Below are positions 2,786 to 29,865 of a stretch of DNA of 46,776 nucleotides, one piece after another (position 1 is the first letter of the stretch; each line of letters begins with the position of its first letter). Source of the stretch: a virus; IMG/VR virus record IMGVR_UViG_3300037628_000466, positions 1 through 46,776 of that record. The stretch is one strand, 5' to 3'. The notes under the pieces were generated by a model. The model saw only the letters and a program-made list of their open reading frames with translations, ran no database searches and was not told the DNA's origin. A program made the translations under genes and the position numbers.

Positions 2786-5221
2786 TTACTTTAGCAAATC
2801 CCGTAAATGTGTGGTGGACCCATTGGCCGGGACAGTGACTTTCAAAAATTTGTTCGAGGCATCGGTCTGTCCTGGCTTGATAACTTCAATCGTTATCGTC
2901 TTAGCTCCAAAAGTTGAATCAGTACCAAAGACCAAAGCCGTCCAATAACCGTTAACATCAGCCCAAACGGTTTGTGTTGGACGAGTAATACTTCTTGTCG
3001 AGGTTCTCATGGGACCTGAACCGTTCATCGTGATCTTAATCTTAGCGTTGGCCAGCGTATCCCCGCGCAATCCATACGCATAGTCCCACAAAGTCGTCAT
3101 TTCCATGTTGTTAGACAGGGCAGTCGGTGAGAAAGGATAACCCATGATCGAATCTACGTCACTCGGAGCCGAGCAAGTGAAGCCCACACCAGTTTCCCAG
3201 ATAAAGAGAGGAGCAAATGCTTCAAACGTATAGGTGGTTACCCCATCAAGGCCATTAAATCTGGCAGTATCATTGGCGGTAAGTACACTTCCTAAATCTG
3301 ATCCTGCCTTGTACATAGTGATATTTACACCGTCGATGCGAACATCGTTAAGCGTATCTACTGCAAATATATAGATTGGTGTTGAACTTTCCCCTGCAAC
3401 CGATCCGCCCTTGAAATTTTCCTTATTGGCGTCAGCGATTGCATTTATCATTGAATCCATATAGGTTGAATCTGTCGGATGTCTGTTCCCCATCATACTA
3501 AGATAGTTATTCGCCGAATCGGGGAATGACCCCGCACCACCCGTCGTCCATGCCGCATCGCCTCGATCCCGAATTGATTGGAGTGCATCGTCACCGGGAG
3601 CAAACGTGCTCCAGTCCTCGCTGGTGGATACTATATGAGCAATGATTGACCCGTCTACTGGTGCATCATCATCGGCAGTCGAAATAAGGTGGTCGAGTCT
3701 TATGGCAACAAGAGCAGCAGCTGCACCGACCTGGGAAGAATCAGCCAGACCCAAATCTATAGTGGCCATACCTACTGCCGCTGAGTCTGCCAGACCCATT
3801 GCTGCCAATTTCTCTATCGCGTATTGCGCGGTAGCCGCATAAGTCAAATTATTCAGCCCTGCCGTACTATCAGCAAGAGTTATCATGCCACGTGCCGTGA
3901 TTTTAGCATTGACATTGACCCCAGCCCCTATCTGTAATTGTCCCCCGATACAATCGAAGGACAGTGAATCATTCGATCCCATTCCATATAAATGCAACCC
4001 GCCGGAATAGCCCCGGAATTGGACACTTTCAGAACCACCGCTGAATATAAGTGAAGGCGTTTTGTCACCTGGCTCACTTGAGACACACCCGATAAACACG
4101 TTGTCACGATCTCCCAGAAGGGTAATATCACCACGTAGGCTACAATCAAGAGCTATCGCATCAAGAGAGGCATCCTCTAAAGCACATCGAATAAATGCTG
4201 CACGATCTCCACCCTGTATTCCGGTAATATCTAAGTCGATGAACATCGACCCGCCAACATCTTGACTATTCAAATCGATTTTGTTCCTTGTTGGATCGCC
4301 GATTCCCATAAAAGTATATCCATTCATCGTTCCCCTTATTGCCTGGTCTCCGCCACCCAGCACACAGAGGGTGTGCACTCCTATTGCGTCAGCGATAGTC
4401 TTTGCATTAGGAAATCCTTTTACGGGTAGAGTAGGAATACCGTTTACTCCAACCACTGTACCAGCCGTGCCATTTGCGGTATCTACCCAAACTGCCCCAC
4501 CGTAATTGGCGAACTGGGCATCGTCGGCAAATTTGGAAGCAGAGATTACATCATCAGCCATTTCAGTAGTATTGACGGCCTTCAAGTTGTCTGCCCGTTC
4601 AATAATCAGACTGTCGTTCGCATCGAAATCCAATAGGTCAGTCTGGTCAGTAATCTTTTTTGCATCATGTCTCAGTAACCTTAGTTCAAGCGAGTCGGCT
4701 GCATCTGAGTCGCCACTGATCGAGGTTACGTCTGTGGTTGTCGCCGTCGCCCATGCCGCATCTCCACCATCGGTTTCGACCTTAATCGCCACCACATCGT
4801 CCTGTGTCCCATTGGTATTTGTTCCCGACAGATAGAAATTGTAATAGGTCGGGAAGCGCTGACCGTCAACAAATAAGTGGACGGCCACCGTATAGTTTCC
4901 GTCACCTGCGCCAGCGTCAATGTCCCCGGCCACATCACGAAACATAACAACATTTTTACCGCCTGCGTAAGCAACTTCCCCGATCCAGTCGGCGGTCATG
5001 TCGGAAGTACGCGCACTGTAAGTTATAGCGTTATCCCCGGCGTCTTCATGCCACACATGAACATGGGCCGAGTCAGAGTCCTCCGCGTAACCGTCCTCGT
5101 CTATGGACGTACAGGGAAACACCACCGGATCGGTGACAGTCAGAACGGGAACGCCTCCGGCTATGCTGAAGCACAAAATCAGGGCAAACCCCAATAATAT
5201 CGACAAACTCTTTTTCATCAT
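2786..5221 (-). CDS. Large fibre-like protein with Sec signal peptide
   Basis: 811 residues. Residues 1-22 are a signal peptide (MMKKSLSILLGFALILCFSI). Residues about 243-275 (VWVDTANGTAGTVVGVNGIP.TLPVKGFPNAKTIADAIG) match a repeat-rich domain seen in many environmental phage fibre proteins, followed by a beta-helix-like stretch (to about 430) of short hydrophobic strands. Next come helical D-S-A-A-rich repeats and a C-terminal beta domain (DVRIDGVNITMYKAG.DLGSVLTANDTARFNGL). Probably a virion fibre or receptor-binding protein; export is not expected for a tailed-phage fibre. SD GGAAGG fits the MM start. Confidence 0.75.
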   Translation of the reverse strand: MMKKSLSILLGFALILCFSIAGGVPVLTVTDPVVFPCTSIDEDGYAEDSDSAHVHVWHEDAGDNAITYSARTSDMTADWIGEVAYAGGKNVVMFRDVAGDIDAGAGDGNYTVAVHLFVDGQRFPTYYNFYLSGTNTNGTQDDVVAIKVETDGGDAAWATATTTDVTSISGDSDAADSLELRLLRHDAKKITDQTDLLDFDANDSLIIERADNLKAVNTTEMADDVISASKFADDAQFANYGGAVWVDTANGTAGTVVGVNGIPTLPVKGFPNAKTIADAIGVHTLCVLGGGDQAIRGTMNGYTFMGIGDPTRNKIDLNSQDVGGSMFIDLDITGIQGGDRAAFIRCALEDASLDAIALDCSLRGDITLLGDRDNVFIGCVSSEPGDKTPSLIFSGGSESVQFRGYSGGLHLYGMGSNDSLSFDCIGGQLQIGAGVNVNAKITARGMITLADSTAGLNNLTYAATAQYAIEKLAAMGLADSAAVGMATIDLGLADSSQVGAAAALVAIRLDHLISTADDDAPVDGSIIAHIVSTSEDWSTFAPGDDALQSIRDRGDAAWTTGGAGSFPDSANNYLSMMGNRHPTDSTYMDSMINAIADANKENFKGGSVAGESSTPIYIFAVDTLNDVRIDGVNITMYKAGSDLGSVLTANDTARFNGLDGVTTYTFEAFAPLFIWETGVGFTCSAPSDVDSIMGYPFSPTALSNNMEMTTLWDYAYGLRGDTLANAKIKITMNGSGPMRTSTRSITRPTQTVWADVNGYWTALVFGTDSTFGAKTITIEVIKPGQTDASNKFLKVTVPANGSTTHLRDLLK

Positions 5222-5222
5222 T

Positions 5223-6587
5223 TCACCTTCCTAATAGTTTTGCCACTCGCTTTCGGCGACCCGCAGCGGGTGCGCCCGCCTCAGTATATGTGCAATAAAT
5301 TGTCATAACAAGATTTGTATTCCATGTAGGGCTGACAATTGGGTCTGCCCATGTATTCTCAGCATAGATTTTCGGAGATTTTTGTGCTACAGTATCACCT
5401 GTAGAAGAACCAAAATGAACTTTAGAATCACCACTCCCACCATCTGACCAAGCCCAAAGGACATATCGATCACCCGACGTTATCGTTTGTGCGTTTTGAA
5501 GATCGAATGTCCACCATTGTTCGGCAACTGACAAGTTTATCTCTTGTGTTGTATCTATCTGATCGCTATTGCCTCCACTTGTTCTTTTATATAATGAACA
5601 TCGTGCATCTTTAGCTGCGGTAGTTACATTAGCATAAATAGTAATACTATCAGCTACGCCCGTTGATGGAGCGGCAAATACACCACCAGTATATGTATTT
5701 GTAATAGTTACTTCACTGCCTTCAATGTCCTGGTGCCCAAAGACTGCACCATGCCAAATGTCTCCAGCCGGTAATGACGCAGTAAACACCGGGTTGAATA
5801 ACTCAACCAAGTAGGGATTACCACTAAGTAAAACAATGCGCTTGTGCACTACGATAGATGTAGTTGAATCTTCGGTTTGGAGATATGATTGTGCTATTGT
5901 CCAGACCATTGTGTCTGCATCTATACCCTTGACCCAGCCATCAGTCATCCGGCCCGCACTGGTAATATCAAACAATCCAGCCGCATCCTTCCACGACAGG
6001 TTAAGCGAATCCACATTCAACCGCGTAGCCGTACCCAGCAAGTATCCGGTCCACGGCCCATAAGCGGTCGTAATCGTGTCTCGGGCCTGTTGGTGGAAAA
6101 TAAATGTCTCAGCATACCGCTGGAACACCTTGGCATTATTGACCAACCGTTTATCAATGCCGGGGAAGATGTTGTGAAATGTAATCGTCCGCCCCGACAT
6201 CGTAACACTATCCGGCATATTAGTTTTCAACGTTTGCCACGTCTTAGTCCCAATATTATATTTAATCAAATGCGTTGTCTGTGTACCGAGATAATGGTTC
6301 CCTTTGGCGTAGATCGCTGCCCCGGTCGAATCAGCAAAAACCCGATGGTTGCCCCGCACTGATTTCCATACTTGTCTGTTCCCGACTTGCACCCAATCGT
6401 CGACAATGAAGTCCCATGTCTGGTCGGATTTCTGATAATTCAGCGTTGGTGTACCGCCCATACCTATCGCCCGCGTAACACTACTATCTGAATTAATCCA
6501 AGAGGCGGGACCAATCGGCACCGGTTGACCCCATGCCGTCGCCCCCAGCAACAGCACAATCGCCAATAATACGAGTGTCGTTTTCAT
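5223..6587 (-). CDS. Fibre-like beta-sandwich protein with Sec signal peptide
   Basis: 454 residues. Residues 1-20 are a textbook signal peptide (MKTTLVLLAIVLLLGATAWG, then QPVP). The middle has WTGYLLGTATRLNVDSLNLSWK-like beta strands. The C-terminal about 150 residues look like a carbohydrate-binding or fibronectin-like sandwich (SITIYANVTTAA.ARCSLYKRTSGG...WWTFDL...GDRYVLWAWSDG). It sits between a one-TM protein and the 811-residue fibre and is co-transcribed with both. I infer a virion surface or glycan-binding role; no enzyme motif is visible. Confidence 0.7.
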   Translation of the reverse strand: MKTTLVLLAIVLLLGATAWGQPVPIGPASWINSDSSVTRAIGMGGTPTLNYQKSDQTWDFIVDDWVQVGNRQVWKSVRGNHRVFADSTGAAIYAKGNHYLGTQTTHLIKYNIGTKTWQTLKTNMPDSVTMSGRTITFHNIFPGIDKRLVNNAKVFQRYAETFIFHQQARDTITTAYGPWTGYLLGTATRLNVDSLNLSWKDAAGLFDITSAGRMTDGWVKGIDADTMVWTIAQSYLQTEDSTTSIVVHKRIVLLSGNPYLVELFNPVFTASLPAGDIWHGAVFGHQDIEGSEVTITNTYTGGVFAAPSTGVADSITIYANVTTAAKDARCSLYKRTSGGNSDQIDTTQEINLSVAEQWWTFDLQNAQTITSGDRYVLWAWSDGGSGDSKVHFGSSTGDTVAQKSPKIYAENTWADPIVSPTWNTNLVMTIYCTYTEAGAPAAGRRKRVAKLLGR

Positions 6588-11294: not shown

Positions 11295-13490
11295 CTACGC
11301 CATAGAGGCGAATTGCATAAGCGTCATATACAACTGATAATCGTTCCGCGATTGCGCCTCCTCGCGTGACCTTTCTATATTTGCCGCCAATTCCTCACGG
11401 TCAAAATCAATACCCATCTGCGTCATCAACAACGAAAGCATTTGCGCCTCACGCTGAATACTGATGTATTCACCCTGAATAACCGCCCTCAACTCAAGCT
11501 CGGTCATCCCCAGCTTTTCTTTGAGCGCCAACCCCTCAGTACCCAAGAAAAAGTCGTGCAATTCCTTCCGTTCATTGATTGTGTTCCGCCACTTCATATC
11601 GATCATATCCATATCCAAGCGGCCAGTCTCAATAAACTTACGCAATGCCTGATCGGCTAACCGGATACCGAATTCGCGCTCGATAGTCTCCCGATAGAAC
11701 CTGAATTTGTCATCTTCAAGATCGGCGGTTCGCAACCCAAGTTCTTCCTTGAGCGCAACCATTCGCTCCTCAAGACCAAACCCCTGTTCATTTTTCAACT
11801 CATCCAATGACTGCGCACGTTCAGCTAAATTCCAATTCTTGTCTGACAAGTCCCAACGCTTCTGCATATCGCGCTCGACCTGATCTATCTGTTCAGCAGT
11901 AAATCCCTCAGCCACCATCTGAGCACGAATAGACTCATTAAATTTACGCTCACCCATTGAAATCTGCCACCGCTGCCAGTCACGGGCTAACACCATCTGT
12001 TCACGATTCAAATCCAAATTGGTCAAGGTTTCAAACGTATCCAATCGCAAAACTTTGTCGCGCCGATCAGCTTCCCACGCCGCCAAGATGACTTCAGCCT
12101 TAGACATATCCCGCACATCAATAGCTCGTTGAACATCAAGCATCGTCTTCGTTGCAGTCAAACCAGCACCCATCGCTGCCTGCTCTGCTCGTTGCTGGGA
12201 CTCTAATTCTGCCCGACCAATAGCAACTTCGCCAGCCGTGCCGATCTCGGCAGTTTTAGCAAACGTCTTAGAACCTTGGCCGATACCCTTAAATGCTGCC
12301 TGCGATAGGGCTTGCTTCATCTGGTTCTTAATATCCAGGCGACGCTGTGCCTTATCTTCATCGGACAACCCGGCAAATGGACCCTTCATTCCAGCCACAA
12401 TACCTTGCAAAGTTGCCAGGAGATCACGCTCAAGAGCGGTGGTTGTATCAATATCATTTTCTTCAAGGATATCCCAGATAGTTTTGTCCGGCTCTTCTTC
12501 CCACTTACTCATCCACTCATCAATTAAATCGAAATAATTGTAGTCGTCATCCGGAGGCACGTCAGGAGGCACGTCCGGCGGTACATCGGGAGGTACATCG
12601 GGAGGTACATCGGGAGGTACGTCTGGAGGTACGTCTGGAGGTACGTCTGGAGGTGTAGTAGGCGTTCCTGGCGGTGGCTCAAGTGGAACTTCTGGCGGCG
12701 TTTCTGTTCCATTCTTACCATCACCATCACCTTCAGTTCCAGAGCTTGCACCCCAGGTAGAAACATCAGCATTAAATTCCGCTAAACCCTCATCACCATA
12801 GACAGCCTGTACTACACCAGAGACTTTATCCCATATTTTACTTAAATCCTGAACCGTCATCGTTCCTGCAACCCATTGATCGTATGCTGCTCTAAAATCC
12901 AATTTAGCTTGATTCGCACCTTCCTCAGTAGAATTATATGGAATATCAGTATCCGGCGGAGTAACACCACCACCAGGAAGAAGTGGTGCGTCGGGGTCAA
13001 CAATCCCACCAGGAAGATCAGTAAAAGTTGTTCCCGTTTCATCCTCGTCGCCTGGAATAGTAATGTCAGTCTGGGTCCGTCCAGACCTATCTCGTCGAGC
13101 AGTTAAATTAGCCATTTTTGCACGATACGTTGAGAGGGTATTTAGATAATCAGCGGGCTTCTCTTTATCTCGCCAGTAATCAACAAATCCCGTATATTGT
13201 CTTTGAATTTCTTCAATTTGCTGATTATAATCACTCCAAATATCCCCGAGAAATTGGGCTGATCCAGTATACTCAGGTAAAGGATCAAATACACCAGTTT
13301 CCCACTGTGACCCTGGGGCCCACCATGCCTCATTCCATTGTTGCCCGAGATAGTCGGTTGGATTACGCAGATCACTATATGTAGCTCCGTATTTATCAGT
13401 AGATTCATAAGATGGTAATGTCTCCCACCACGATTGCCACGGGTCAAAAGGAACTTCGGTCTGATTTCCACCTGCCAATATGTCCGCCAT
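11295..13490 (-). CDS. Putative internal/ejection protein with PPDV tandem repeats
   Basis: 731 residues in three parts. The N-terminal about 250 residues are Trp/Tyr/Asp-rich (DPWQSWWETL, QWNEAWWAPG). A proline linker contains eight tandem PPDV units (DNA 12552-12655). The last about 400 residues are a long helical, coiled-coil region (FNESIRAQMVAEGFTAEQI, LGLRTADLEDDKFRFYRETI). This combination of a rigid proline spacer and coiled coil suits an ejected or tail-core protein, but no family was recognised. It is co-transcribed with the 445- and 1008-residue candidates. Confidence 0.6.
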   Translation of the reverse strand: MADILAGGNQTEVPFDPWQSWWETLPSYESTDKYGATYSDLRNPTDYLGQQWNEAWWAPGSQWETGVFDPLPEYTGSAQFLGDIWSDYNQQIEEIQRQYTGFVDYWRDKEKPADYLNTLSTYRAKMANLTARRDRSGRTQTDITIPGDEDETGTTFTDLPGGIVDPDAPLLPGGGVTPPDTDIPYNSTEEGANQAKLDFRAAYDQWVAGTMTVQDLSKIWDKVSGVVQAVYGDEGLAEFNADVSTWGASSGTEGDGDGKNGTETPPEVPLEPPPGTPTTPPDVPPDVPPDVPPDVPPDVPPDVPPDVPPDVPPDDDYNYFDLIDEWMSKWEEEPDKTIWDILEENDIDTTTALERDLLATLQGIVAGMKGPFAGLSDEDKAQRRLDIKNQMKQALSQAAFKGIGQGSKTFAKTAEIGTAGEVAIGRAELESQQRAEQAAMGAGLTATKTMLDVQRAIDVRDMSKAEVILAAWEADRRDKVLRLDTFETLTNLDLNREQMVLARDWQRWQISMGERKFNESIRAQMVAEGFTAEQIDQVERDMQKRWDLSDKNWNLAERAQSLDELKNEQGFGLEERMVALKEELGLRTADLEDDKFRFYRETIEREFGIRLADQALRKFIETGRLDMDMIDMKWRNTINERKELHDFFLGTEGLALKEKLGMTELELRAVIQGEYISIQREAQMLSLLMTQMGIDFDREELAANIERSREEAQSRNDYQLYMTLMQFASMA
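12552..12655. repeat. Twelve-base tandem repeat encoding PPDV units
   Basis: Eight copies of a 12-base unit (for example GGAGGTACGTCT on the plus strand) lie in frame inside the 731-residue gene. Copies differ at third codon positions (ACGTC/ACATC, TCT/TCG/TCC), which shows the peptide repeat is kept while DNA drifts; copy number may vary between isolates. Confidence 0.9.
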
Positions 13491-13506: not shown

Positions 13507-14178
13507 TTAATACCCTACCGCTATCCAATCCAAATACCGATTATCGCCTGCATTCTTAAGAACCTCACAATATGCAGTTGTTCTAACACCAGGATTAATA
13601 GATACCTCCGTACCAGAAGCATGAGGTGTTATTGTAATTGCGTAAGTAGAATCACTGGTAAATGCTATCGGAAAATCAATCGTATCTCGCACATCACCGT
13701 TAGCCATACTGATTGTTCCTGATTGAAATATTCCATGACCGATTGTAAAACTACGAGATATTGGTATTCCCCCAGCACTAACATAAGTAGAATCAAGATT
13801 GGCCCATAAAGTATCGTGAGCCGCAGCACGATATGCCGTCACTGTATCATTATTGCGCAAAACCAACGCTGCATTAATTGCTGTTCCTAATGTATCTACA
13901 TCACCTGCAATCAATGCCGAGTCAACAATACCCGGTGCATTACCACCCGAACTATCCTCCCAATTCCACGAACTACCAAAAGCCACGGCATACAACGCCG
14001 AATCCACCCATCGTGGCCCATTAGCTGCATGGAGCGCATAGTAATCGATCATATGCCGCTGGGTAACGTAATCAATACGGCTTCGCCGAATGTCGCGTTG
14101 ATTCTCCTGCGGTATTGCTGAACCGATTAAAATAAAACTAATCGTCAGCGCGACCATAATCTTCAAAAAAGACTTCAA
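13507..14178 (-). CDS. Exported tail-associated protein with beta C-terminal domain
   Basis: 223 residues from a TTG at 14178 with GGAGG nine bases upstream; it overlaps the tail gene by 41 bases. Residues 1-24 form a signal peptide (KSFLKIMVALTISFILIGSA, then IPQ). The C-terminal about 75 residues (FQSGTISMANGDVRDTIDF.PIAFTSDSTYAITITPHAS) resemble the sugar-binding tip or lectin-like domains at the end of phage fibres. An internal ATG (about 14157) is possible but would shorten the signal. Probable fibre or tail-tip protein. Confidence 0.65.
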   Translation of the reverse strand: MKSFLKIMVALTISFILIGSAIPQENQRDIRRSRIDYVTQRHMIDYYALHAANGPRWVDSALYAVAFGSSWNWEDSSGGNAPGIVDSALIAGDVDTLGTAINAALVLRNNDTVTAYRAAAHDTLWANLDSTYVSAGGIPISRSFTIGHGIFQSGTISMANGDVRDTIDFPIAFTSDSTYAITITPHASGTEVSINPGVRTTAYCEVLKNAGDNRYLDWIAVGY

Positions 14179-16543
14179 CTCCTAATACCTCCACGCCAGT
14201 AGATTTTTTCGTTTCGATCATCAACGCCATACTCCGGCCCTGCATCGCTGCAAGTCCGCGTCGTGATGTTTGCCAACCCGACGACGACGCAAAAGAATCG
14301 ATGAACGTCGCACTCGCCGACCAGTCCAAATACCAGTGCGTTCGCAACGATCCCGCCGCTGCCATAGTATAAATTGGCGCATATTCAAGCCACGCCTTAT
14401 TGTGCAACAAACCCCCGAAAGTATCGAACCCGGTTTTGATTTGCATGGTGATGAACTCAGCCGTGTCTTTGGAACCTGAAGGAAATTTAAGCACGTATGA
14501 ATCACCATCGACCGGAGTACCGATAAGTAGTGTATCACCATAACCCGAACCTCCACGCATTATTGCAAAGGCGGAGGCACCGAAATTCGTGTACTTACTC
14601 CATTGCCTCGTCGTCAGATCAAATCTCAAGGTGCGATCATTCTCGGTGCCTCCGCGACTGGTATACGAAATATATAAAGCCGGTGTACCGATGGTCACGT
14701 CTATCGCTGCAATCATCCTGATTGCCGCTTCTGTTCCGGCGGCAATAGAGTCGGCGAAATAGAACTGTGCTGGACCAGAGATATTGATAGCCCGCGATCC
14801 GTCGAAAGCAAATAAGCCGTGCGGTGGCGAGACAAAATAAATTAATCCACCATATTTCCAGACTGCCTCTTGTGACGGTGCACCAGTGGGCGATTCAGCC
14901 AAAATGATTTCATCTATTTCATTGTCATAGGCTGAGACTATCGCAAGATAGACATACCGTCGTTTAAACACAACCATATTGCGATTATAGGGAATGAGTG
15001 CAGTAATGACATCCCCGTCATCACGGTTTATATAGATGGCTCCATCGGAAGCACCGCTACCACAAATTTCAAATTCCGCGCAATACCACAACTCGCTGGG
15101 ATCACTACCAGTATAGTAAAGCCGATTATTCAATAACGCTTGAATACCATCACCGAAACCGGAATGAAGCACCGTATCTGTCGCTACCGTGGCATCCACG
15201 CTGTCCATGCGATATATTTCAATGGTATCACCAGATTTAAAGTGATGACCAGCAGGAGCAGGCCCAGTTGCATAGCCGTAATCGTAAATAACAATACCCG
15301 TTGAATCACCATTCGTCACCAAGTTGATCGGATAATCCGGGTAGTTTGCCACCGTTGCCCGATATGTTCCCCAATCAAGGGTATCACTCGGCCAATCATG
15401 GGGTGCGTCTGCATCATTTGTTCTCCAAATAGTATATGTATATAAATGCCATGCTGCGGTTGGTGCCCACAAATCTTGAATCGAATCACGGGCCACATCC
15501 TGTATCCTGTTGGCAAAAAATAAAGTGGGAACGATGTCATCCTGAGAAACCCAATCTACTCGATATGTCTCAGTGGGATCGGCGCTTAACCAAACTTCCG
15601 TGGCGGTATCCGCATACATATAATAGTCGCCGCTATAATAAGCAAAACAAGTCAACATTTGATTTCGCAACGAAGTACCGGGAACATTCGCATTATGAAA
15701 CATCAGATAGTCACCGACAACAAATCCATCTATGGGAGAACCGGAAAACGAAATGCGCTGTTTACTCTCCCGAAATTGTAGCCCTCCCGACCGCATCTTG
15801 ACAACATAGGAAGCCCCCGCCGGTAAGCCACCCAAACCACCATATCTAAACCGCTCAGTCCCATCAACCACAATAAGCGTATCGGTAAACATGACACCGC
15901 GTTTGGGTGCGAGCGGATTTTTAATAACATCTTCCGCTCCGGCATCGTAACTGATTTGTATAGTACAAGCCACACCGTTCGCCGAAGAACCACTCCATAC
16001 GGTGTCCAATACCAATGTAATATCTGTTAATATCGCCTTAATTAAATGATCTTTTTGGTCATCACCAATGCGAATAAATTGTGGTCGATATTTCGATAAT
16101 TCCCACCAACGAACACCACTCCCCCGCACCGTGTCTCCGCCAGCCTCAACACTACACACCCCTGCCGTTGGATTACTTCCAGTAAGCAATTCAAAATCCG
16201 ATAAACTATGATTATACCGATAAATGCTGTTATTAGAGAATGCCAATAATTCATTCCCGCCAGAAGACGGATCAAAACGAAATATTCCGGTAATCGGCCC
16301 ATCCTCCAAGGTGCCACCTAACTTCGTAAACCCTGCCCGCTGCTTGATAATTTGACTTCCGGTACGAACAATGATGTCGGCATTAACCAACTCTCGCACC
16401 GTGGAGAGCGCATTCGCCGGTGCCCGGTCGCCCATGATCCCGGTGAAATTATAGACCGGCATCACCTCGTATGGGTCTATCGCAGCAGCAATCAGAACTA
16501 CCGCGAAGGCCAAGGCCAATACTATATTAATTTTGCGGCGCAT
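14138..16543 (-). CDS. P22 gp10-like tail/packaged-DNA stabilisation protein with signal peptide
   Basis: 801 residues. Repeated beta-blade segments are visible: ITGIFRFDPSSGGNELLAFS, RDDGDVITALIPYNRNMVVF followed by KRRYVYLAI, and GGLIYFVSPPHGLFAFDG. These resemble the beta-propeller-type tail proteins of short-tailed phages (P22 gp10-like stabilisation proteins). Such proteins cap the portal-adaptor ring inside the cytoplasm. Here residues 1-21 (MRRKINIVLALAFAVVLIAAA) form an apparent Sec signal, which is unexpected for this family. SD GGGGATA precedes the ATG. The order adaptor-adaptor-tail hub follows podovirus convention. Confidence 0.75.
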   Translation of the reverse strand: MRRKINIVLALAFAVVLIAAAIDPYEVMPVYNFTGIMGDRAPANALSTVRELVNADIIVRTGSQIIKQRAGFTKLGGTLEDGPITGIFRFDPSSGGNELLAFSNNSIYRYNHSLSDFELLTGSNPTAGVCSVEAGGDTVRGSGVRWWELSKYRPQFIRIGDDQKDHLIKAILTDITLVLDTVWSGSSANGVACTIQISYDAGAEDVIKNPLAPKRGVMFTDTLIVVDGTERFRYGGLGGLPAGASYVVKMRSGGLQFRESKQRISFSGSPIDGFVVGDYLMFHNANVPGTSLRNQMLTCFAYYSGDYYMYADTATEVWLSADPTETYRVDWVSQDDIVPTLFFANRIQDVARDSIQDLWAPTAAWHLYTYTIWRTNDADAPHDWPSDTLDWGTYRATVANYPDYPINLVTNGDSTGIVIYDYGYATGPAPAGHHFKSGDTIEIYRMDSVDATVATDTVLHSGFGDGIQALLNNRLYYTGSDPSELWYCAEFEICGSGASDGAIYINRDDGDVITALIPYNRNMVVFKRRYVYLAIVSAYDNEIDEIILAESPTGAPSQEAVWKYGGLIYFVSPPHGLFAFDGSRAINISGPAQFYFADSIAAGTEAAIRMIAAIDVTIGTPALYISYTSRGGTENDRTLRFDLTTRQWSKYTNFGASAFAIMRGGSGYGDTLLIGTPVDGDSYVLKFPSGSKDTAEFITMQIKTGFDTFGGLLHNKAWLEYAPIYTMAAAGSLRTHWYLDWSASATFIDSFASSSGWQTSRRGLAAMQGRSMALMIETKKSTGVEVLGVEVFFEDYGRADD

Positions 16544-17210
16544 CGACTATCCCCAATTTTGCTCGTTTGTATCCCTGATACACTGCCCACCAAAACGCCT
16601 GATTCTGATAGTCCTTACGATTGGCACTAATGAAGGCCGCCGTCAAATAAGCTACTGCCACCGCATCAGTCTCGTCGATTCCCGCCGCATCACTGACAGC
16701 CGTCATTCGCGTAGCCATCGGCACATAATAAACAATCAACGAATCAGCGGCCACCGACTGATTGTGAATTGTCAGCGTTCGTTTTAAGATCGTGTAATAA
16801 TACGGCCCTGACTTATTCATCGGCTTACCAATCATTTCGGGCGGTAACAACTGTAAGGCATATTCTTCCCTGCTTTCTAACTTCTTCCAGATAACCATCA
16901 CCACCTGATTACTTATCATCGTAGAATCTAATCCATAAGTCAGTTTCCGCGCCGTCATCGAAATTCTCTTAGTGGTAACCTGAGACTTCAAATCCGCCTG
17001 CACAAATCCCGCCGCCAGATTAATTACATAATCCAAAACACTGTCGGGAAAAGTGCCCACCGTAAAATTCGTCGCCGCCCGGCCTAAAGCCCGATAAGCC
17101 GCCAAACTATCATAATCCGCCGCCTGGACTGCGCTACTAATAATACCCATGCTGAGGATTATGCTGACGACCGCGACCACCAAAATCATTAAGGTCTTTG
17201 ACTTCTGCAA
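16527..17210 (-). CDS. Head-tail adaptor-like protein with Sec signal peptide
   Basis: 227 residues from a TTG at 17210, chosen because GGGGAGG lies seven bases upstream; the frame is open further but lacks a ribosome site. Residues 2-32 are QKSK, then a hydrophobic core (LMILVVAVVSIILSMGIIS) and VQA cleavage site. The mature part (YRALGRAATNFTVGTFPDSV, LDYVINLAAGFVQADL; later LTIHNQSVAADSLIVYYVP) resembles connector proteins that begin with an alpha-helical adaptor bundle and a beta segment. It overlaps the 801-residue gene by 17 bases and the upstream adaptor by 74. Confidence 0.65.
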   Translation of the reverse strand: MQKSKTLMILVVAVVSIILSMGIISSAVQAADYDSLAAYRALGRAATNFTVGTFPDSVLDYVINLAAGFVQADLKSQVTTKRISMTARKLTYGLDSTMISNQVVMVIWKKLESREEYALQLLPPEMIGKPMNKSGPYYYTILKRTLTIHNQSVAADSLIVYYVPMATRMTAVSDAAGIDETDAVAVAYLTAAFISANRKDYQNQAFWWAVYQGYKRAKLGIVDAPQN

Positions 17211-21506: not shown

Positions 21507-22589
21507 TTATGCTACCCTCGTTTCTTTTTCTTTTCCCGCCACTTGCTGTAGGCTACCGCCACCCGCTGCTTCGAGTCTGGGTAATCCCGCTTCGCTTCTT
21601 TGCTCGACATGAACCGGGACACGAATTGTTTCCTTGTCTCCCTCGCCTTCGGCTGCGGCATGGGTCATCATCTCCTTTTCCTCGCGCTCAAGCTCCTCAC
21701 GCTGACGTTCGTTTTGCTTATGTAATTCAACGACATCCTGCACCGACTTCTCGTTAATCCCAGCATTGTTCAGCGCATGAATCTCCGCCATCCAATGATT
21801 CGGACTTTGATTGCAATGCTGAATGTAACGCCCAATACTAATCGCCTGCATCTCATAATGATCGAAAACAACGCCGAGGTGAATCGCTGAACCAAGCCCA
21901 AAGCGATGCGCGTCAACACACAACCGAATATCAGGACCATAGTTACCAAGGTCTTCCAAATTAACTCCGGCATCAAACCACGGATAAGGCACAGCATCGA
22001 AAACTGAGCGATGATATAGGCAAAAACCCGACCCACAGGCAATGTCCATACCACCACCGGCACCACCGTAAGGCTTATCGATTACCGCTCCGGCCATACA
22101 TTGCGTTTCATTAAAGTCAAGACCAGGTCGAAAAGGCATCCAGTTAAATCCCGTTTCGTCACGCCGATAAGCAATGGGTCGCCAGGGCTTTGACCGCGAG
22201 GGGCAAATCCCAGAAATGATCGGGCGAATCACCTTGCCGTCCTTATCCATAGCAGCATCCAAAAGCATACATAGGGAGGCGGGATGAAAATCGTGATCCG
22301 AACCAACAGTCAACAACCACTCACCGACCATCGCATTAGCCAGTGCCGTATGGTTACGCGCTACGTGAAGGCCACGCCCGACATCCTTAGGGATTATCTG
22401 CACCCGAACATCGCGATCCTCACTGAACTTCACCAGTTCATTGAGTGCACTTTTGCATACTGGCATAACGTCAACTTCAAAGCCAGAAAAGCGCGGTAAT
22501 GGAATGCCGATGGAAACATTGTGCTTCCAGACTTTAAGCTTTAGTTTTCTTTTTCCAATACCCGGCTCTATTGTCTTCTTTTTTCCCAA
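21507..22589 (-). CDS. GT2-like (GT-A fold) glycosyltransferase
   Basis: 360 residues from a TTG at 22589 with GGAGGA five bases upstream, overlapping the previous gene by about 200 bases' worth of shared C-terminal region in another frame (22534-22589 is double-coding). Motifs: VSIGIPLPRFSGFEVDVM at the first strand, GEWLLTVGSDHDFHP containing the D-x-D metal site, and YGPDIRLCVDAHRFGLG near the catalytic acid. The last 80 residues are a charged Glu/Lys/Gln-rich tail. Likely uses a nucleotide-sugar donor. Confidence 0.75.
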   Translation of the reverse strand: MGKKKTIEPGIGKRKLKLKVWKHNVSIGIPLPRFSGFEVDVMPVCKSALNELVKFSEDRDVRVQIIPKDVGRGLHVARNHTALANAMVGEWLLTVGSDHDFHPASLCMLLDAAMDKDGKVIRPIISGICPSRSKPWRPIAYRRDETGFNWMPFRPGLDFNETQCMAGAVIDKPYGGAGGGMDIACGSGFCLYHRSVFDAVPYPWFDAGVNLEDLGNYGPDIRLCVDAHRFGLGSAIHLGVVFDHYEMQAISIGRYIQHCNQSPNHWMAEIHALNNAGINEKSVQDVVELHKQNERQREELEREEKEMMTHAAAEGEGDKETIRVPVHVEQRSEAGLPRLEAAGGGSLQQVAGKEKETRVA

Positions 22590-22791
22590 TCTTCTCCTCC
22601 GCTTTTGGTTTCGGCTCCTCCGCCGCCTTCGGTTCCCTTACCAGGAATGGACCAAGTGAATCCTTGAAATACTTGGCCAACATACCATCCCACCGCCGCC
22701 GCTCAAATGTACCACCAACAATATTATGAAACTCATTCATAAATGAGGCAGCGGTTTCATCACAGGTTTTCTCAAATTTAACCTTGTCCAT
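22534..22791 (-). CDS. Small hypothetical protein with charged C-terminus
   Basis: 85 residues from the ATG at 22791. The N-terminal 55 residues are amphipathic helices (FEKTCDETAASFMNEFHNIV, RRRWDGMLAKYFKDSLGPFL); the remainder is a Pro/Glu/Lys tail (REPKAAEEPKPKAEEKIGKK). The 3' end overlaps the start of the glycosyltransferase gene, and the 5' end overlaps the GT8-like gene. Not recognised. It may be an accessory of the glycan cassette. Confidence 0.6.
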   Translation of the reverse strand: MDKVKFEKTCDETAASFMNEFHNIVGGTFERRRWDGMLAKYFKDSLGPFLVREPKAAEEPKPKAEEKIGKKEDNRAGYWKKKTKA

Positions 22792-23530
22792 TTTCGACCC
22801 CCGCAATACGCAATATGCGTTTAACTAACTCTTTATCTTTCCACCTGCCACCCTTGAAATGAAAACCGTAAATTGGAATATCGTCCTCAACACGCTTAGC
22901 GATGTCTTCTTCCCAAGCGTCAATATTGTCACATTCACTTAATATTTGCATATAGTCAAGAGGTAAGACTATATCCTTAAACTCCTCATTATATCCGATC
23001 AACAAGGTGTATGACAGTTGATCGTAGGCTTGTTTACCCTGCGTCGTCATAACACCACAGTGACACAATGAATTAGACAAGTAAGCCCATAGACGAATAA
23101 ATTCTACCATCTCGGAGGTGTTTATGCCAAAAAAGTGATTTGTCGGGAACTTGCCGCAGGGACCAAGACGAATACCACCAAGGCATTTCTTTTGTTCATA
23201 CAAAGCGCGAAACCATGCCGAAACATTTTTAACGATCAAGCAATCAGTACCGATAAAAAAGAACTTTTGATCGGGAGATGCCTGCAAATTATAGTGTTCC
23301 AATGCCCGAGGCAACCGTCCAACATTTACCACCCAATCATTGCTGGACTTAAATACAGGCCGATAAGAAATAAGTACATCGGTTTTAATCTCGATCTCCG
23401 GGCGATTCCAAATACCATCAGTATAGACAACCACCTTTTCACAACCGGATTTATTGACCCACCCCGGCAGACAAAAACGAAGACTGTCCGCGTAATTCTC
23501 GGAACAATATGTCACAATGTCAAAACCCAT
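22778..23530 (-). CDS. GT8-like glycosyltransferase, tandem paralogue 2
   Basis: 250 residues. It is clearly paralogous to the next gene upstream (23530-24255): both start with an aspartate/tyrosine strand then NY.D.L.FCLP, share SGCEKVVVYTDG, SNDWVVNVGRLPRA, an F-x-G-x-D-C metal-site strand (FFFIGTDCLIVKNV), and a C-terminal HFKGGRWKDKELVKRIL. The DC motif plus the late H-x-x-G...K element recall family GT8/GT-A enzymes. The exact family and sugar are unknown. Starts right at the stop of its paralogue. Confidence 0.65.
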   Translation of the reverse strand: MGFDIVTYCSENYADSLRFCLPGWVNKSGCEKVVVYTDGIWNRPEIEIKTDVLISYRPVFKSSNDWVVNVGRLPRALEHYNLQASPDQKFFFIGTDCLIVKNVSAWFRALYEQKKCLGGIRLGPCGKFPTNHFFGINTSEMVEFIRLWAYLSNSLCHCGVMTTQGKQAYDQLSYTLLIGYNEEFKDIVLPLDYMQILSECDNIDAWEEDIAKRVEDDIPIYGFHFKGGRWKDKELVKRILRIAGVENGQG

Positions 23531-24255
23531 TACACTACCTTAGCTAATGCCAATATTTCCTTGACCAGTTTCTCGTCTTTCCAACGTCCACCCTTAAAAT
23601 GCAAACCGTAAACCCCTTCACCAAGTCGACCAACCGAAGATTTCCAATTATCGAGATCATCCGTCTCATTCATTAAAACTTTATCTTTTAGCCCAAATAC
23701 CTCGGGCAAATAAACCGAGAGAACAAGGAAATCAAATGAAATTTGGTCATAGGCGACATAACCTTCCATTGTACCAATATTACACTCCTGCATACACGCA
23801 CTTAAAGGCATCCAGGCATCAACCATCTCCCGACAGCGATCATTGACTATGGCAAAAAATATATTAGGAATTGTTTTTTTAAGACTGTCAAGTCGGTACA
23901 AACCCAACCATCGCTTATTAGACATTTCATCAAATACCATCGAAACATCGCGGACAAAGATACAATCAGCACCATTAAGAACAAATTTCTGACCCTCCTT
24001 TGCCCGATGAACATAATCATTAGCGGTCAAAGGCAAGCGCCCTACATTCTCCAGCCAATCCGAAGATTTATTAAAGTGAGGCCGATACTCCACCGGAATT
24101 GACATTTGCACATCGGGTCGATGAGAATAATCACCAGAATCTTCATCAGTATAAATAATAACCCGCTCTGCCCCGGAATAGTTTCCAACCCACGGCAGAC
24201 AAAACTTCAAAGCATCCATATAATTCTGAGAACAGTACATGACCAAATCAAACAT
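23530..24255 (-). CDS. GT8-like glycosyltransferase, tandem paralogue 1
   Basis: 241 residues. Shared blocks with its neighbour: YCSQNYMDALKFCLPW, SGAERVIIYTDE, SSDWLENVGRLPL, FVLNGADCIFVRDV (candidate metal-binding strand) and LHFKGGRWKDEKLVKEIL. The start overlaps the 3' end of the N-formyltransferase gene by eight bases. Duplication within the cassette suggests two related transfer steps on one glycan (inference). Confidence 0.65.
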   Translation of the reverse strand: MFDLVMYCSQNYMDALKFCLPWVGNYSGAERVIIYTDEDSGDYSHRPDVQMSIPVEYRPHFNKSSDWLENVGRLPLTANDYVHRAKEGQKFVLNGADCIFVRDVSMVFDEMSNKRWLGLYRLDSLKKTIPNIFFAIVNDRCREMVDAWMPLSACMQECNIGTMEGYVAYDQISFDFLVLSVYLPEVFGLKDKVLMNETDDLDNWKSSVGRLGEGVYGLHFKGGRWKDEKLVKEILALAKVV

Positions 24256-24985
24256 CTTCTTTTATCTCCGTGATATGAAAGCGCACCCCATCGAGCAAGA
24301 TATAGGGTGTCTGGAATTTGGGAAAGATCATCGCCCGGAGCCAGTCGGCGGCACCTTTGTCGTCAACGAAATCCTCAAACTTAAATTCGTTTTTAGAAAA
24401 GTCCAGGTCGTCCTTGGTGTAGTACCTGGCCTCCCCCTTGTCTTGAGCTTTCGCGACAAGTTTGTTTTCGCGAATGCGCGGCCACAACGCCTTAAACATA
24501 TCAACAGCCATTTTACAAACTGCGCGATAAACATCGGCGGCAGTGTCGATAGAACGGGGCGAATAAGGACAAAAAGCAATTATCCCGCCGGTATCAATTC
24601 CCTCATCCATGTAATGCAATGTCGCGCAAATTTCTTCTTCCCCGTTAATCATCGCATGAGCAATGGGAGCCATACCCCGATAATTAGGCAACAAGCCGAA
24701 ATGCAGGTTGATACAACCCTTCGGCGGAATTTTGACAACTTCCGGCTTCAGAATTTTATGATACTGAAAGGAAAGGATATAATCCGGGGCCAATTCCTTG
24801 ATGTAATCGACACATAGATTAATATCTTCGGTGATGACCTCCTTAATTCCCAACCATTCAGCAAAATGAGGAATTTCCCGTTCTTCCTTACTGGTAAAAA
24901 CCACCGGGACATGAACACCATTGCCCCGCAAATAGAGCAATAACTCCCGACAAACATCACCTTTCCCAGCCACAATTACCTTCAT
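24248..24985 (-). CDS. Sugar N-formyltransferase-like enzyme
   Basis: 245 residues with a complete formyltransferase catalytic triad: N93 and H95 in GCINLHFGLLPNYRG and D131 in MDEGIDTGGII. This is the N10-formyl-tetrahydrofolate binding fold shared by Fmt, PurN and the sugar N-formyltransferases (ArnA N-domain, FdtF). The C-terminal FPKFQTPYILLDGVRFHI following an ...WLRAM helix fits the amino-sugar enzymes better than Fmt or PurN. It would formylate an amino sugar. It is flanked by the portal gene (ATGA overlap) and glycosyltransferases, which supports a glycan substrate. Confidence 0.8.
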   Translation of the reverse strand: MKVIVAGKGDVCRELLLYLRGNGVHVPVVFTSKEEREIPHFAEWLGIKEVITEDINLCVDYIKELAPDYILSFQYHKILKPEVVKIPPKGCINLHFGLLPNYRGMAPIAHAMINGEEEICATLHYMDEGIDTGGIIAFCPYSPRSIDTAADVYRAVCKMAVDMFKALWPRIRENKLVAKAQDKGEARYYTKDDLDFSKNEFKFEDFVDDKGAADWLRAMIFPKFQTPYILLDGVRFHITEIKEDV

Positions 24986-27202: not shown

Positions 27203-28966
27203 TCAGAAACTCGGTGCACCCCAGTTATCCTGCTGGGGTGGACGCTGTTGACGACTGCGGTATAACAGTTCAGCATTATCCGTCTCGGCAGCTTCTTCTT
27301 TTTGCTTTCGCGCCCGAAGAAAAGCGTGACAGAGAGCATCAGCGGGATGCGAGTAAATATTTTTAACCATACTATCCGAATAAGTACCGTCATGATGACT
27401 GCCAAAAACACAATGACCGGAGAGGCCGTCAATCAAGATCGTCGTCCCCACCCGAACCTGAGTGTCCGGCAGGAGACGACAGATAACATGAGTATCAGTT
27501 CTTTGAACCAGAAACGGCTCTTGACTATCCGAGTCAGCCGGACTCAGCAACATCTCTCGACGCAACAAATCCTGCATATCGCGAGGATCGACATACTGCC
27601 AATCCACGTCAAGATTATGTTTATTTTCCATATAATCTTTCGGCGTTTCCGATTGAGTATTGCGGTCGATCATACCACCCTGCGGATTCCGCCAAGCCCC
27701 CTGCGGATCGATTCCCTCCATCCACATCGCACCCGGCCAGCGCTGCTTACAATGCTTAATTACTTCATCGCAAAACACCAGAAAATCAATATCATAACCC
27801 AAAAACGTCTCAATGATCTGAAAACTCTTAAAAGTCGAATTGTCATAACAAACGACAACCGCCGGGTAATGTCGGCCAAAGTCCCAACCACGATACAGAA
27901 GCGGTCGCGGTGGCACCTGACAGACACCGATATGTCGTCCATCGCGAAAATTGGGGAACACCCTTTTACCTTTAGGACTGGCAAAACTGATCTCCTGCTC
28001 CTGTAACCAATCCGCATCAGTCATCCCCCGCTTCGTTTTAGCTTTCCAGCGTTTACCAAACTCCCGCAACACACCACCGCACTTCGGACATTTCTTTCCG
28101 CTCGCCCCACGAATATCCCGATGATAACCACAATCCTTGCAAACCACACGATTGGGGTCTCTATACTTATCCACCGTATAATGCACCCTACAAACAGTAT
28201 AACCATTATCCGAGTTTTCCCAAATCTTGAGTCCACGCATTATTTCAGGAACTACCGCTCCTTTGTCAGTAACGGAATCCGCCGTTTCCTCACGATCATT
28301 AACCCGATAATAAAAATGGTTCTTGCCATTCGGCGAAGATACATCATAAACCGCCCCAATCTCACCTAAAGCAGAGATGAGCGCCCGATGTCCTTCCGGT
28401 GACTTCGGCGAAAAAGCATCCTCATCATAAACAACATAAGTCGCAGTATTCATGCGAATCTCATCCGGGTCTTGTGATAAGCCCTCGATAATGCTCATCT
28501 TATCGCGAGCACCCTTCTTAAGCTCATCTAACGGCGGATAGAAAGGAAAGGTATTAGAAGTACCGATATCCCCCCGGACCCGCTGGGTTGTATGAATTTC
28601 ATTAAGCGCTCCCACACTAAAACCCTGGCAACGGTAAATAAACTTGGCCCGATCAACCAACTTAGAGGCATGACTCTTTTTCAGTGAAATATAAAATGTC
28701 CAAATATTACGATGGAACTGCGTCGCCCATAAAGTATAAGCTACCACCAGCCAGGACAACATCAGCTGCCGTGACTTAGGGGCGATAACACGAGTACAAG
28801 TATGGAGCTTTTCAGCGATTGCATAAAGATACGGCTGATCTTTTTCTTTAGGAAAAGGCCGTGACCGCAAATCGGGGCGATGCTGATCCTGGGTCCGACA
28901 ACGAGTTTCAAGCCAATAATACGGATCATCCATACACCGACCGAGTTCCTTCTCCTCAAGACTCAA
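27203..28966 (-). CDS. terL: Terminase large subunit with zinc-ribbon insertion
   Basis: 587 residues from a TTG at 28966 (GAGGAGG upstream, TTGA overlap with the small subunit). ATPase part: Walker A-like APKSRQLMLSW (about 62-72), Walker B TYVVYDEDAF (177-185, D181/E182). Nuclease part: YRGWDFGRHYPAVV (D362) and the late SHPADALCHAFLRA supplying another acidic ligand. Between the two sits a four-cysteine zinc ribbon, C276, C279, C293, C296, an insertion also seen in some other phage large terminases. It packages DNA through the portal. Confidence 0.93.
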   Translation of the reverse strand: MSLEEKELGRCMDDPYYWLETRCRTQDQHRPDLRSRPFPKEKDQPYLYAIAEKLHTCTRVIAPKSRQLMLSWLVVAYTLWATQFHRNIWTFYISLKKSHASKLVDRAKFIYRCQGFSVGALNEIHTTQRVRGDIGTSNTFPFYPPLDELKKGARDKMSIIEGLSQDPDEIRMNTATYVVYDEDAFSPKSPEGHRALISALGEIGAVYDVSSPNGKNHFYYRVNDREETADSVTDKGAVVPEIMRGLKIWENSDNGYTVCRVHYTVDKYRDPNRVVCKDCGYHRDIRGASGKKCPKCGGVLREFGKRWKAKTKRGMTDADWLQEQEISFASPKGKRVFPNFRDGRHIGVCQVPPRPLLYRGWDFGRHYPAVVVCYDNSTFKSFQIIETFLGYDIDFLVFCDEVIKHCKQRWPGAMWMEGIDPQGAWRNPQGGMIDRNTQSETPKDYMENKHNLDVDWQYVDPRDMQDLLRREMLLSPADSDSQEPFLVQRTDTHVICRLLPDTQVRVGTTILIDGLSGHCVFGSHHDGTYSDSMVKNIYSHPADALCHAFLRARKQKEEAAETDNAELLYRSRQQRPPQQDNWGAPSF

Positions 28967-29445
28967 GACTCCTCCTCAAGCTCAATATTCTCATCTCCGT
29001 CGGGATCGAGATTATGAAAGTCCAACTTGGGCCGCTTGGATATTTTGCTTATTTTGCCCATTTTTTCCTTAAGATCATGCTTGTCAGACTTCTCCGGTTT
29101 TTCGGGAACATCATCAAGTTTAAGCATTTTTCTCATTTCAACCTTATTATCACTGTAGGCAACCTTGAAGACCTCCAACGCAATTTTATCATCACCGGCA
29201 GCAATCTTCATCAGCAAATGCTTGGTCGCAACCACCGCCAAAACACGAAGATAACCGGCTATCCGAATCGGGTCTTTGCGACGCATCGCCGCATGATCGA
29301 CCTTAGCGTTAGACCTTGTTTCCGACTCAACCTTCTTCAGTATCTTAATTACAGTAGTTGGATCATCGAGGTCAATATCCCAAATACCTTTTGGCATACT
29401 CCGAAATAATAAATCTTCGTCATCGGAAATTGATTTACGACCCAT
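28963..29445 (-). CDS. Putative terminase small subunit
   Basis: 160 residues from the ATG at 29445, eight bases after GGGAGG. Assigned by position directly upstream of and overlapping TerL. The sequence is helical with a basic/acidic central region (RRKDPIRIAGYLRVLAVVAT) and a Lys-rich segment (EKPEKSDKHDLKEKMGKISK), ending in a very acidic tail. I cannot point to a family signature, so a non-terminase DNA-binding role remains possible. Confidence 0.6.
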   Translation of the reverse strand: MGRKSISDDEDLLFRSMPKGIWDIDLDDPTTVIKILKKVESETRSNAKVDHAAMRRKDPIRIAGYLRVLAVVATKHLLMKIAAGDDKIALEVFKVAYSDNKVEMRKMLKLDDVPEKPEKSDKHDLKEKMGKISKISKRPKLDFHNLDPDGDENIELEEES

Positions 29446-29449
29446 CTTA

Positions 29450-29743
29450 TCAGACCTCCCTGCCATCCAGGTCATACACAACGTAACCGCCGGAACCATA
29501 TTGCTCTTGCCATCCCCTAATAAGTTTCACCTTTTCTTTAGGCACAAGAACATGATAATTGCCATCCTCAAACGTGGGAACTTTATTTTTCCTTAAGAGC
29601 TCCACGGCTTTTTGTAACATATCAGACATCAGAACATCGGATGGTGCCCCTACAGATATGCCCTCAGCAAAGATCGTTGGAGCCACGACACAACCAATAG
29701 CCAAAATCGAGGCAGTACGCAAAAATGAACGACGGTCAGACAT
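29450..29743 (-). CDS. Tat-signal miniprotein carrying an N4-gp56 capsid-like fragment
   Basis: 97 residues. Residues 3-26 form a twin-arginine signal: DRRSFLRTASILAIGCVVAP, then TIFA before EG. Residues 43-76 (LQKAVELLRKNKVPTFEDG then NYHVLVPKEKV) align with capsid residues about 271-303 (LLKAKEILQKNKAKRFPDG then TYHAIIPPEVV), roughly 16 identities in 34 positions, and GSGGYV near the end mirrors the capsid GEGGYV. The gene is first in the late operon, before the terminase genes, with a GGAGGAAG ribosome site. No function is known for such a fusion; see findings. Confidence 0.75.
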   Translation of the reverse strand: MSDRRSFLRTASILAIGCVVAPTIFAEGISVGAPSDVLMSDMLQKAVELLRKNKVPTFEDGNYHVLVPKEKVKLIRGWQEQYGSGGYVVYDLDGREV

Positions 29744-29865
29744 TTACTTCCTCCCCTCTCCTTAAAACGTCACAAATTAACCATTTGTCAAGAAAAAAAT
29801 GAGTTTATTGTAAAAAAGTCTTACTTTTTACAATAAAATGACGTTTATACTTAAACGGAGGGATT
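29744..29865. promoter_or_regulatory. Divergent control region between late and plus-strand early operons
   Basis: This 122-bp AT-rich gap holds two nested inverted repeats. ATTGTAAAAA (29807-29816) pairs with TTTTTACAAT (29825-29834), and AAACGTCA (29765-29772) pairs with TGACGTTT (29839-29846). It also contains the second exact copy of the 19-base promoter element (29782-29800) with a minus-strand TTGACA, although its -10 (TTTTAA) is weak. The palindromes are good operator candidates for a regulator acting on both operons. No single promoter can be fixed with confidence. Confidence 0.6.

Follow-up and report, generated by a model that had tools for sequence, protein, structure and literature searches.

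A small late phage gene joins a twin-arginine-like signal to a segment related to N4-gp56 capsid proteins

Several described phage systems resemble the gene analyzed here in some of their parts. The N4-gp56/HK97-fold capsid proteins, which are about 310-480 aa long, have one contiguous segment in common with the 97-aa product of this gene (called the miniprotein below), in the order helix, KN-x-VP-x-F-x-DG-x-YH strand, helix and GGYV strand. However, the miniprotein lacks the rest of the capsid fold and carries a signal peptide. Ltp of phage TP-J34 is a small phage lipoprotein that blocks DNA injection, and its gene belongs to the lysogeny module (PMC3952083). The miniprotein is like the Ltp-type superinfection-exclusion lipoproteins in being small, in having an export signal and in its possible action outside the cytoplasmic membrane, but no sequence similarity to Ltp was found (no Pfam family, E up to 10). 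In contrast to the ltp gene, the miniprotein gene leads a packaging operon, and its lipobox is suggestive only. The Tab/anti-Tab genes are also accessory genes beside terS, one of which is part of the late operon and overlaps by a single base (PMC10884400), but they are not exported as far as described, are not derived from a capsid, and Tab targets the tape measure protein. In the T4 gp23 Gol segment and in the capsids that activate CapRel, part of a capsid affects host defence: CapRel is triggered by capsid proteins, the contacts involving loops of the P and A domains, and Lit is triggered by the T4 capsid's Gol segment (PMC9712102). These activating regions are parts of full capsid proteins, whereas the miniprotein is the product of a separate gene with predicted export. 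An 85-aa protein encoded directly after terL in one other phage locus (L091, 10036-10293) and also found in L089 has no PHROG match. Like the miniprotein it is short, has a lipoprotein-like signal and belongs to a packaging cluster, but its sequence is unrelated, its signal is of Sec type and it lacks a capsid segment. Phage proteins that are small and exported are known already, and so is immunity that senses capsids. The new part would be the coupling of a capsid segment with a twin-arginine (Tat) signal in one gene. In the open-access literature searched, no separate gene was described in which such a signal is fused to a segment of the capsid fold.

The window, that is the whole stretch of DNA that was analyzed, comprises 46,776 bases and covers the whole virus record in IMG/VR. 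The coordinates of its features are collected in Table 1. The product of the miniprotein ORF is MSDRRSFLRTASILAIGCVVAPTIFAEGISVGAPSDVLMSDMLQKAVELLRKNKVPTFEDGNYHVLVPKEKVKLIRGWQEQYGSGGYVVYDLDGREV. This gene leads the late operon, as the original prediction had proposed. Left of the divergent intergenic region it comes first among the minus-strand genes, and it stands directly before the gene in the position of the small terminase subunit (TerS), which is followed by the genes for the large subunit (TerL), the portal and the capsid. The portal, encoded in the same minus-strand block, matched phrog_332 'head-tail adaptor' (E=5e-13), phrog_1216 portal (5e-6) and SU10_portal (1.1e-6), and the TerS-position gene matched no family in Pfam or PHROG. 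The TerS-position gene starts 4 bases past the stop codon of the miniprotein gene, whose final codons, GGC AGG GAG GTC TGA, contain the ribosome site of this next gene. With the codon usage of the late genes, the coding log-odds of the miniprotein gene were 0.078 in the correct frame against -0.151 and -0.122 in the other frames, and 0.037 for the core alone. The GC content by codon position was also skewed, as in coding DNA. The coding statistics, the strong Shine-Dalgarno sequence and a gene end that suits the ribosome site of the neighbouring gene suggest that this is a working gene. The inverted repeat of the intergenic region could be an operator placed between early and late transcription.

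Table 1. Features of the window discussed in the text
Feature	Position	Strand	Basis
Miniprotein gene, 97 aa, ATG start: Tat-like signal and capsid-type segment	29450..29743	-	ORF, frame-specific coding log-odds
Miniprotein residues 1-27, twin-arginine signal MSDRRSFLRTASILAIGCVVAPTIFAE	29663..29743	-	TIGR01409 14.1 bits, h-region score
Miniprotein residues 35-88, HK97/N4-gp56 capsid-type segment	29480..29641	-	BLASTP, HMM, hhalign, AF2
Shine-Dalgarno sequence GGGGAGG of the miniprotein gene, strong	29750..29756	-	direct sequence reading
AGGGAGG in the last miniprotein codons (..GREV), Shine-Dalgarno sequence of the next gene	29455..29461	-	direct sequence reading
Next gene, 160 aa, small terminase subunit (TerS) position	28963..29445	-	ORF, place before TerL
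Large terminase subunit (TerL)	27203..28966	-	phrog_2 E=8e-15
Imperfect inverted repeat, 22 nt, divergent intergenic region	29795..29846	.	repeat search
Major capsid protein, N4-gp56 family, 432 aa	17873..19171	-	TIGR04387 E=3.3e-18; phrog_1357 E=4.1e-18
Capsid residues 264-328, counterpart of the miniprotein segment	18188..18382	-	BLASTP alignment
Late proteins with Sec-type signals	1575-2120, 2786-5221, 5223-6587, 13507-14178, 14138-16543, 16527-17210	-	signal prediction
Tandem paralogues between portal and capsid	22778-23530, 23530-24255	-	
Family-2 glycosyltransferase (PF00535) and formyltransferase (PF00551)	21507-22589, 24248-24985	-	
731-aa protein	11295-13490	-	

The likeness of the miniprotein to capsid proteins was examined by several comparisons. 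Its residues 43-76 had been said to match capsid residues 271-303 at about 16 of 34 positions, and 16 identities were found over 32 ungapped positions (43-74 against 272-303). The GSGGYV motif, described as mirroring GEGGYV of the capsid, lay with its counterpart in the same alignment, past an 11-residue gap. BLASTP of miniprotein residues 35-88 against residues 264-328 of the phage's own capsid gave 42.4 bits (E=3e-10; 24 of 65 residues identical); when the mature part of the miniprotein was shuffled 20,000 times, no score exceeded 26.9 bits. In the late protein set, this pair and one pair of tandem paralogues were the only significant cross-matches. The top PHROG match of the miniprotein was 'major head protein' (phrog_1357, E=0.0042, positions 176-226 of 356), and the TIGR04387 family model did not match it. 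A hidden Markov model of 29 foreign capsid segments, made without window sequences, matched only the capsid (1.4e-13) and the miniprotein (3.7e-10) among 574 window ORFs; these segments had been collected by a motif shared with the miniprotein, which makes the E-values flattering. The PHROG match, the BLASTP result and the shuffle null are unaffected by this choice of segments. The alignment A6, which contains capsid rows together with the miniprotein, was compared with the capsid alignment A1 by hhalign, which gave 99.2%.

The miniprotein also keeps F-x-D-G-x-Y-H, residues that are invariant across the aligned capsid segments. The pattern N-[VIM]-P-x-F-x-D-G-x-Y-H was found at 37 loci in IMG/VR, all in capsid-type ORFs except one (a 1195-codon ORF in L022), and N-K-[VIM]-P-x-F-x-D-G-x-Y was found at four further loci, of which three were capsids and one an 18-codon frame (L129). 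These scans rule out a generic motif, and the conserved block appears close to capsid-specific. Two doubts about the original prediction, that the match might be a generic motif or that similarity to capsids might be missing at the HMM level, were thus dispelled: the similarity is significant, the motif pointed to capsids specifically in almost every scan, and homology to the N4-gp56 (HK97-fold) capsids is supported. A complete capsid fold takes about 300 aa or more, and the 97 aa of the miniprotein include its signal, so that a full capsid paralogue is ruled out by length. The capsid resemblance is real, and the observation is sound and unusual.

The AF2 model of the miniprotein was made from an alignment of 27 capsid segments and hence provides no independent evidence for a capsid fold. 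It contained a helix (residues 40-52), a strand (63-66), a second helix (69-82) and a second strand (87-90). The pLDDT was 55-84 in the block from residue 31 on and under 50 in the signal, with a mean of 57.6. The phage's own capsid, modelled from its single sequence, had a mean pLDDT of 32.6. When the miniprotein model was searched with Foldseek, BFVD gave an N4-gp56 capsid as its most probable match (probability 0.72 and rmsd 2.2 across 44 columns, with E=0.5); in the PDB list, the Sf6 capsid complex ranked low. No match was significant in PDB or BFVD, and the capsid matches lend support but no more. With a profile of the segment, solved capsids were matched weakly, the best being 8e16 (E=0.0024).

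The phage's own capsid had been taken as the immediate source of the segment, and this part of the original prediction was not supported. Foreign capsids were equally close to the miniprotein (41.6 and 41.2 bits), and no DNA similarity was found between its gene and the own capsid gene, which rules out a recent tandem copy. Among the aligned codons, 11 of 40 third positions matched, which is near-random, against 24 first and 23 second positions. The stretch N-K-V-P-T-F-E-D-G of the miniprotein is nearer the family consensus than N-K-A-K-R-F-P-D-G of the own capsid. Because foreign capsids score equally and DNA similarity is absent, the segment would therefore be the product of an old split or a piece from another capsid lineage; it is too short for a deciding tree.

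The N-terminus of the miniprotein reads MSDRRSFLRT and continues into a hydrophobic stretch. The twin-arginine signal proposed for it was confirmed as Tat-like, with RRSFLRT and an h-region milder than those of Sec signals (Kyte-Doolittle mean 2.61, against 2.90-3.75 in six Sec-type signals of the same phage). Tat signals are usually less hydrophobic than Sec signals. The NCBIfam Tat signal model TIGR01409 gave 14.1 bits (E=0.045), which is below its cut-off of 16.7. Among 3,963 ORF starts preceded by a Shine-Dalgarno sequence in the fetched phage loci, that of the miniprotein was the only one to pass the Tat filter. By eye, LAIGC resembles a loose lipobox, and a putative signal peptidase I site between TIFA and EG is an alternative place of cleavage. 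The miniprotein is thus a possible Tat lipoprotein. We infer that it is exported; Tat takes folded substrates, which would require the 60-residue capsid-domain piece to fold by itself.

The same fusion beside terminase genes was also sought in other phages, and it was absent from every related phage examined. In the fetched loci, 69 capsid-profile matches were obtained, and short ORFs occurred among them only where a contig end cuts the capsid. In 39 loci of TerL-related phages, whose best segments were 22-41% identical, there were 16 capsid-profile matches, counting L005, and no short fragment. When 30 other viral records were searched whole with the miniprotein, 14 of them had one match each, and the matching ORF was 312-481 aa long in every case. 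The present phage had two matches and was the only one with a second, short match. In IMG/VR, no close relatives of the miniprotein, the capsid or the gp10-like protein were found, and TerL had a single distant fragment (L003) as relative. The tblastn search of INPHARED with the miniprotein gave only chance-level matches (E of 4 or worse), including the phiKX1 coat protein. A profile scan of prokaryote genomes gave no match, and the prokaryote genome scans overall gave nothing credible. The searches relied on near-exact short words or on a known host, so that distant orthologues could be missed. The fusion is a single example, with no orthologue in any scan.

A scan with the single protein found one ORF of a Flavobacteriales MAG (L075, 5998-6249), which had been selected by an exact 8-mer, shares TFEDGNYH with the miniprotein and has a signal peptide. 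It is cut by the contig end, is not capsid-like and looks CotH-like by eye, and was rejected as an orthologue; the resemblance was taken as one of chance. Among 396 genomes sampled from the phylum of this MAG, which may not be that of the phage's host, there was no match at E≤0.001.

Six other late proteins of this phage, several of them virion-type, start with Sec-type signal peptides behind Shine-Dalgarno sequences. Among them are the gp10-like tail protein and a fibre-like protein. No Sec-type signal was found on the capsid, the portal, the terminases, the 1008-, 445- and 731-aa proteins or the M15 peptidase. For genes of at least 150 aa, the proportion with Sec-type signals was 6 of 30 here against 10 of 479 and 7 of 286 (17 of 765) in other phage loci (Fisher p=1e-4, obtained with a home-made predictor and with loci that are not independent). 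The 801-aa protein can be placed near phrog_3287, and part of it matches a protein annotated as phage stabilization protein. Those of its phrog_3287 relatives that have a readable start (in L115, L116, L117, L120, L122/L123 and L124) were without a signal peptide; those in L118, L119, L121 and L126, whose start is not callable with confidence, were outside this comparison. Because Sec-type signals stand on six other late proteins, envelope targeting would be a theme of this genome and the setting of the miniprotein. Signal-peptide-like N-termini were also seen on late-type proteins of other environmental phages (L005 25580-26113, L099 2540-3544 and L103 4697-5746), and the pattern of signal-bearing late proteins may be wider than this genome. 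Such signals on late virion-type proteins could prove a more important lead than the miniprotein.

The best explanation overall, which we hold tentatively and at somewhat less than even chances, is that the gene encodes a genuine late protein, combining a Tat signal (perhaps of the Tat-lipoprotein kind) with an alpha-beta-alpha-beta piece that is a relative of part of the HK97-fold capsid. This piece would have been exapted as a small export-competent domain. The miniprotein would be made together with the packaging genes, would go to the inner membrane or be anchored there, and would act at the cell envelope late in infection, where it might interfere with entering or re-adsorbing particles or DNA in an exclusion-like manner. 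Its expression, translocation, independent folding and function are all predicted from the features of the gene. An exclusion-like envelope protein is weakly favoured, since a small compact segment behind a Tat-type signal points outwards, and since phages are known to make small exported proteins that block entry, such as Ltp (PMC3952083). The capsid homology, the Tat motif with its milder hydrophobic core, the coding score, the strong Shine-Dalgarno sequence, the close spacing to the TerS-position gene, the F-x-D-G-x-Y-H kept despite near-random third codon positions, the AF2 model with its BFVD match and the six Sec signals were counted for this explanation, and the sub-cut-off TIGR01409 score, the single example and the low model confidence against it. 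The late, packaging-linked position argues against a classical exclusion gene. If the miniprotein is functional, a capsid piece has been reused outside the virion, at the envelope or against capsid-sensing defence. The fusion was found in one genome only and the coding score of its core is rather weak, which would also fit a relic or accidental fusion, in which a capsid fragment that recombination left close to the packaging genes, behind a start and a signal-like sequence, is translated without a selected role; phage head genes recombine often. We consider this unlikely, though clearly worth keeping in mind, as there is no close source capsid and hence no fresh copy, the intact ORF keeps the family-invariant residues, and the gene has a canonical RR-x-F-L motif, a strong Shine-Dalgarno sequence and an end that matches the ribosome site of its neighbour exactly. 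Resemblance by chance, without common ancestry, is barely credible. The segment is short, and the unrelated MAG protein shares TFEDGNYH with it (a string for which that protein had been hunted by 8-mer), but the score of 42.4 bits lies far above that of the best shuffle, the second block GGYV is collinear, and the PHROG match is independent.

Other explanations give the exported or capsid-like part a different task. As a counter-defence decoy, the capsid-like piece would bind a cytoplasmic capsid sensor and the Tat signal would park the complex at the membrane; this agrees with the triggering of CapRel by capsid proteins and of Lit by the Gol segment (PMC9712102) and with the defence and anti-defence genes that adjoin terS in Tab/anti-Tab (PMC10884400). 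Such a decoy is improbable, however, since PADLOC gave no match and action in the cytoplasm needs no signal peptide. To our knowledge, no sensor is tied to the capsid segment present in the miniprotein. T4 heads start on the inner membrane, and the miniprotein, with its capsid-type segment, is encoded by the first gene of the packaging operon. It might accordingly serve as a membrane tether or nucleator, held in the inner membrane by its signal while the capsid-like surface docks capsomers or the portal, with packaging at the membrane. We give little credence to this possibility, because the capsid-like part of a Tat substrate would be periplasmic, away from the cytoplasmic heads, and related phages package without a miniprotein. 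The six late proteins with Sec-type signals, including the gp10-like tail and fibre-like proteins, and the lack of a detected signal on capsid, portal, terminase or M15 peptidase could also be read as a periplasmic virion-finishing set, which the miniprotein joins and whose parts are added to the heads at lysis. This seems very unlikely, as the signals may be uncleaved or serve secreted copies, and the virion roles of most of the signal-bearing proteins rest on position or weak matches; we know of no phage that assembles in this way. Just as hard to credit is a wider reading, in which phages are able to convert part of the capsid fold into an exported envelope protein and this phage stands for a lineage that uses Sec for tail-type proteins and Tat for a capsid-type piece to cross the inner membrane, with part of virion function or assembly being periplasmic.

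Some further observations were made among the late genes. The tandem paralogues between the portal and the capsid are 39% identical and had no Pfam match. The head gene cluster also holds a glycosyltransferase and a formyltransferase gene, suggesting that sugar or surface modification genes lie among the structural genes. The 731-aa protein contains a run of PPDV repeats.
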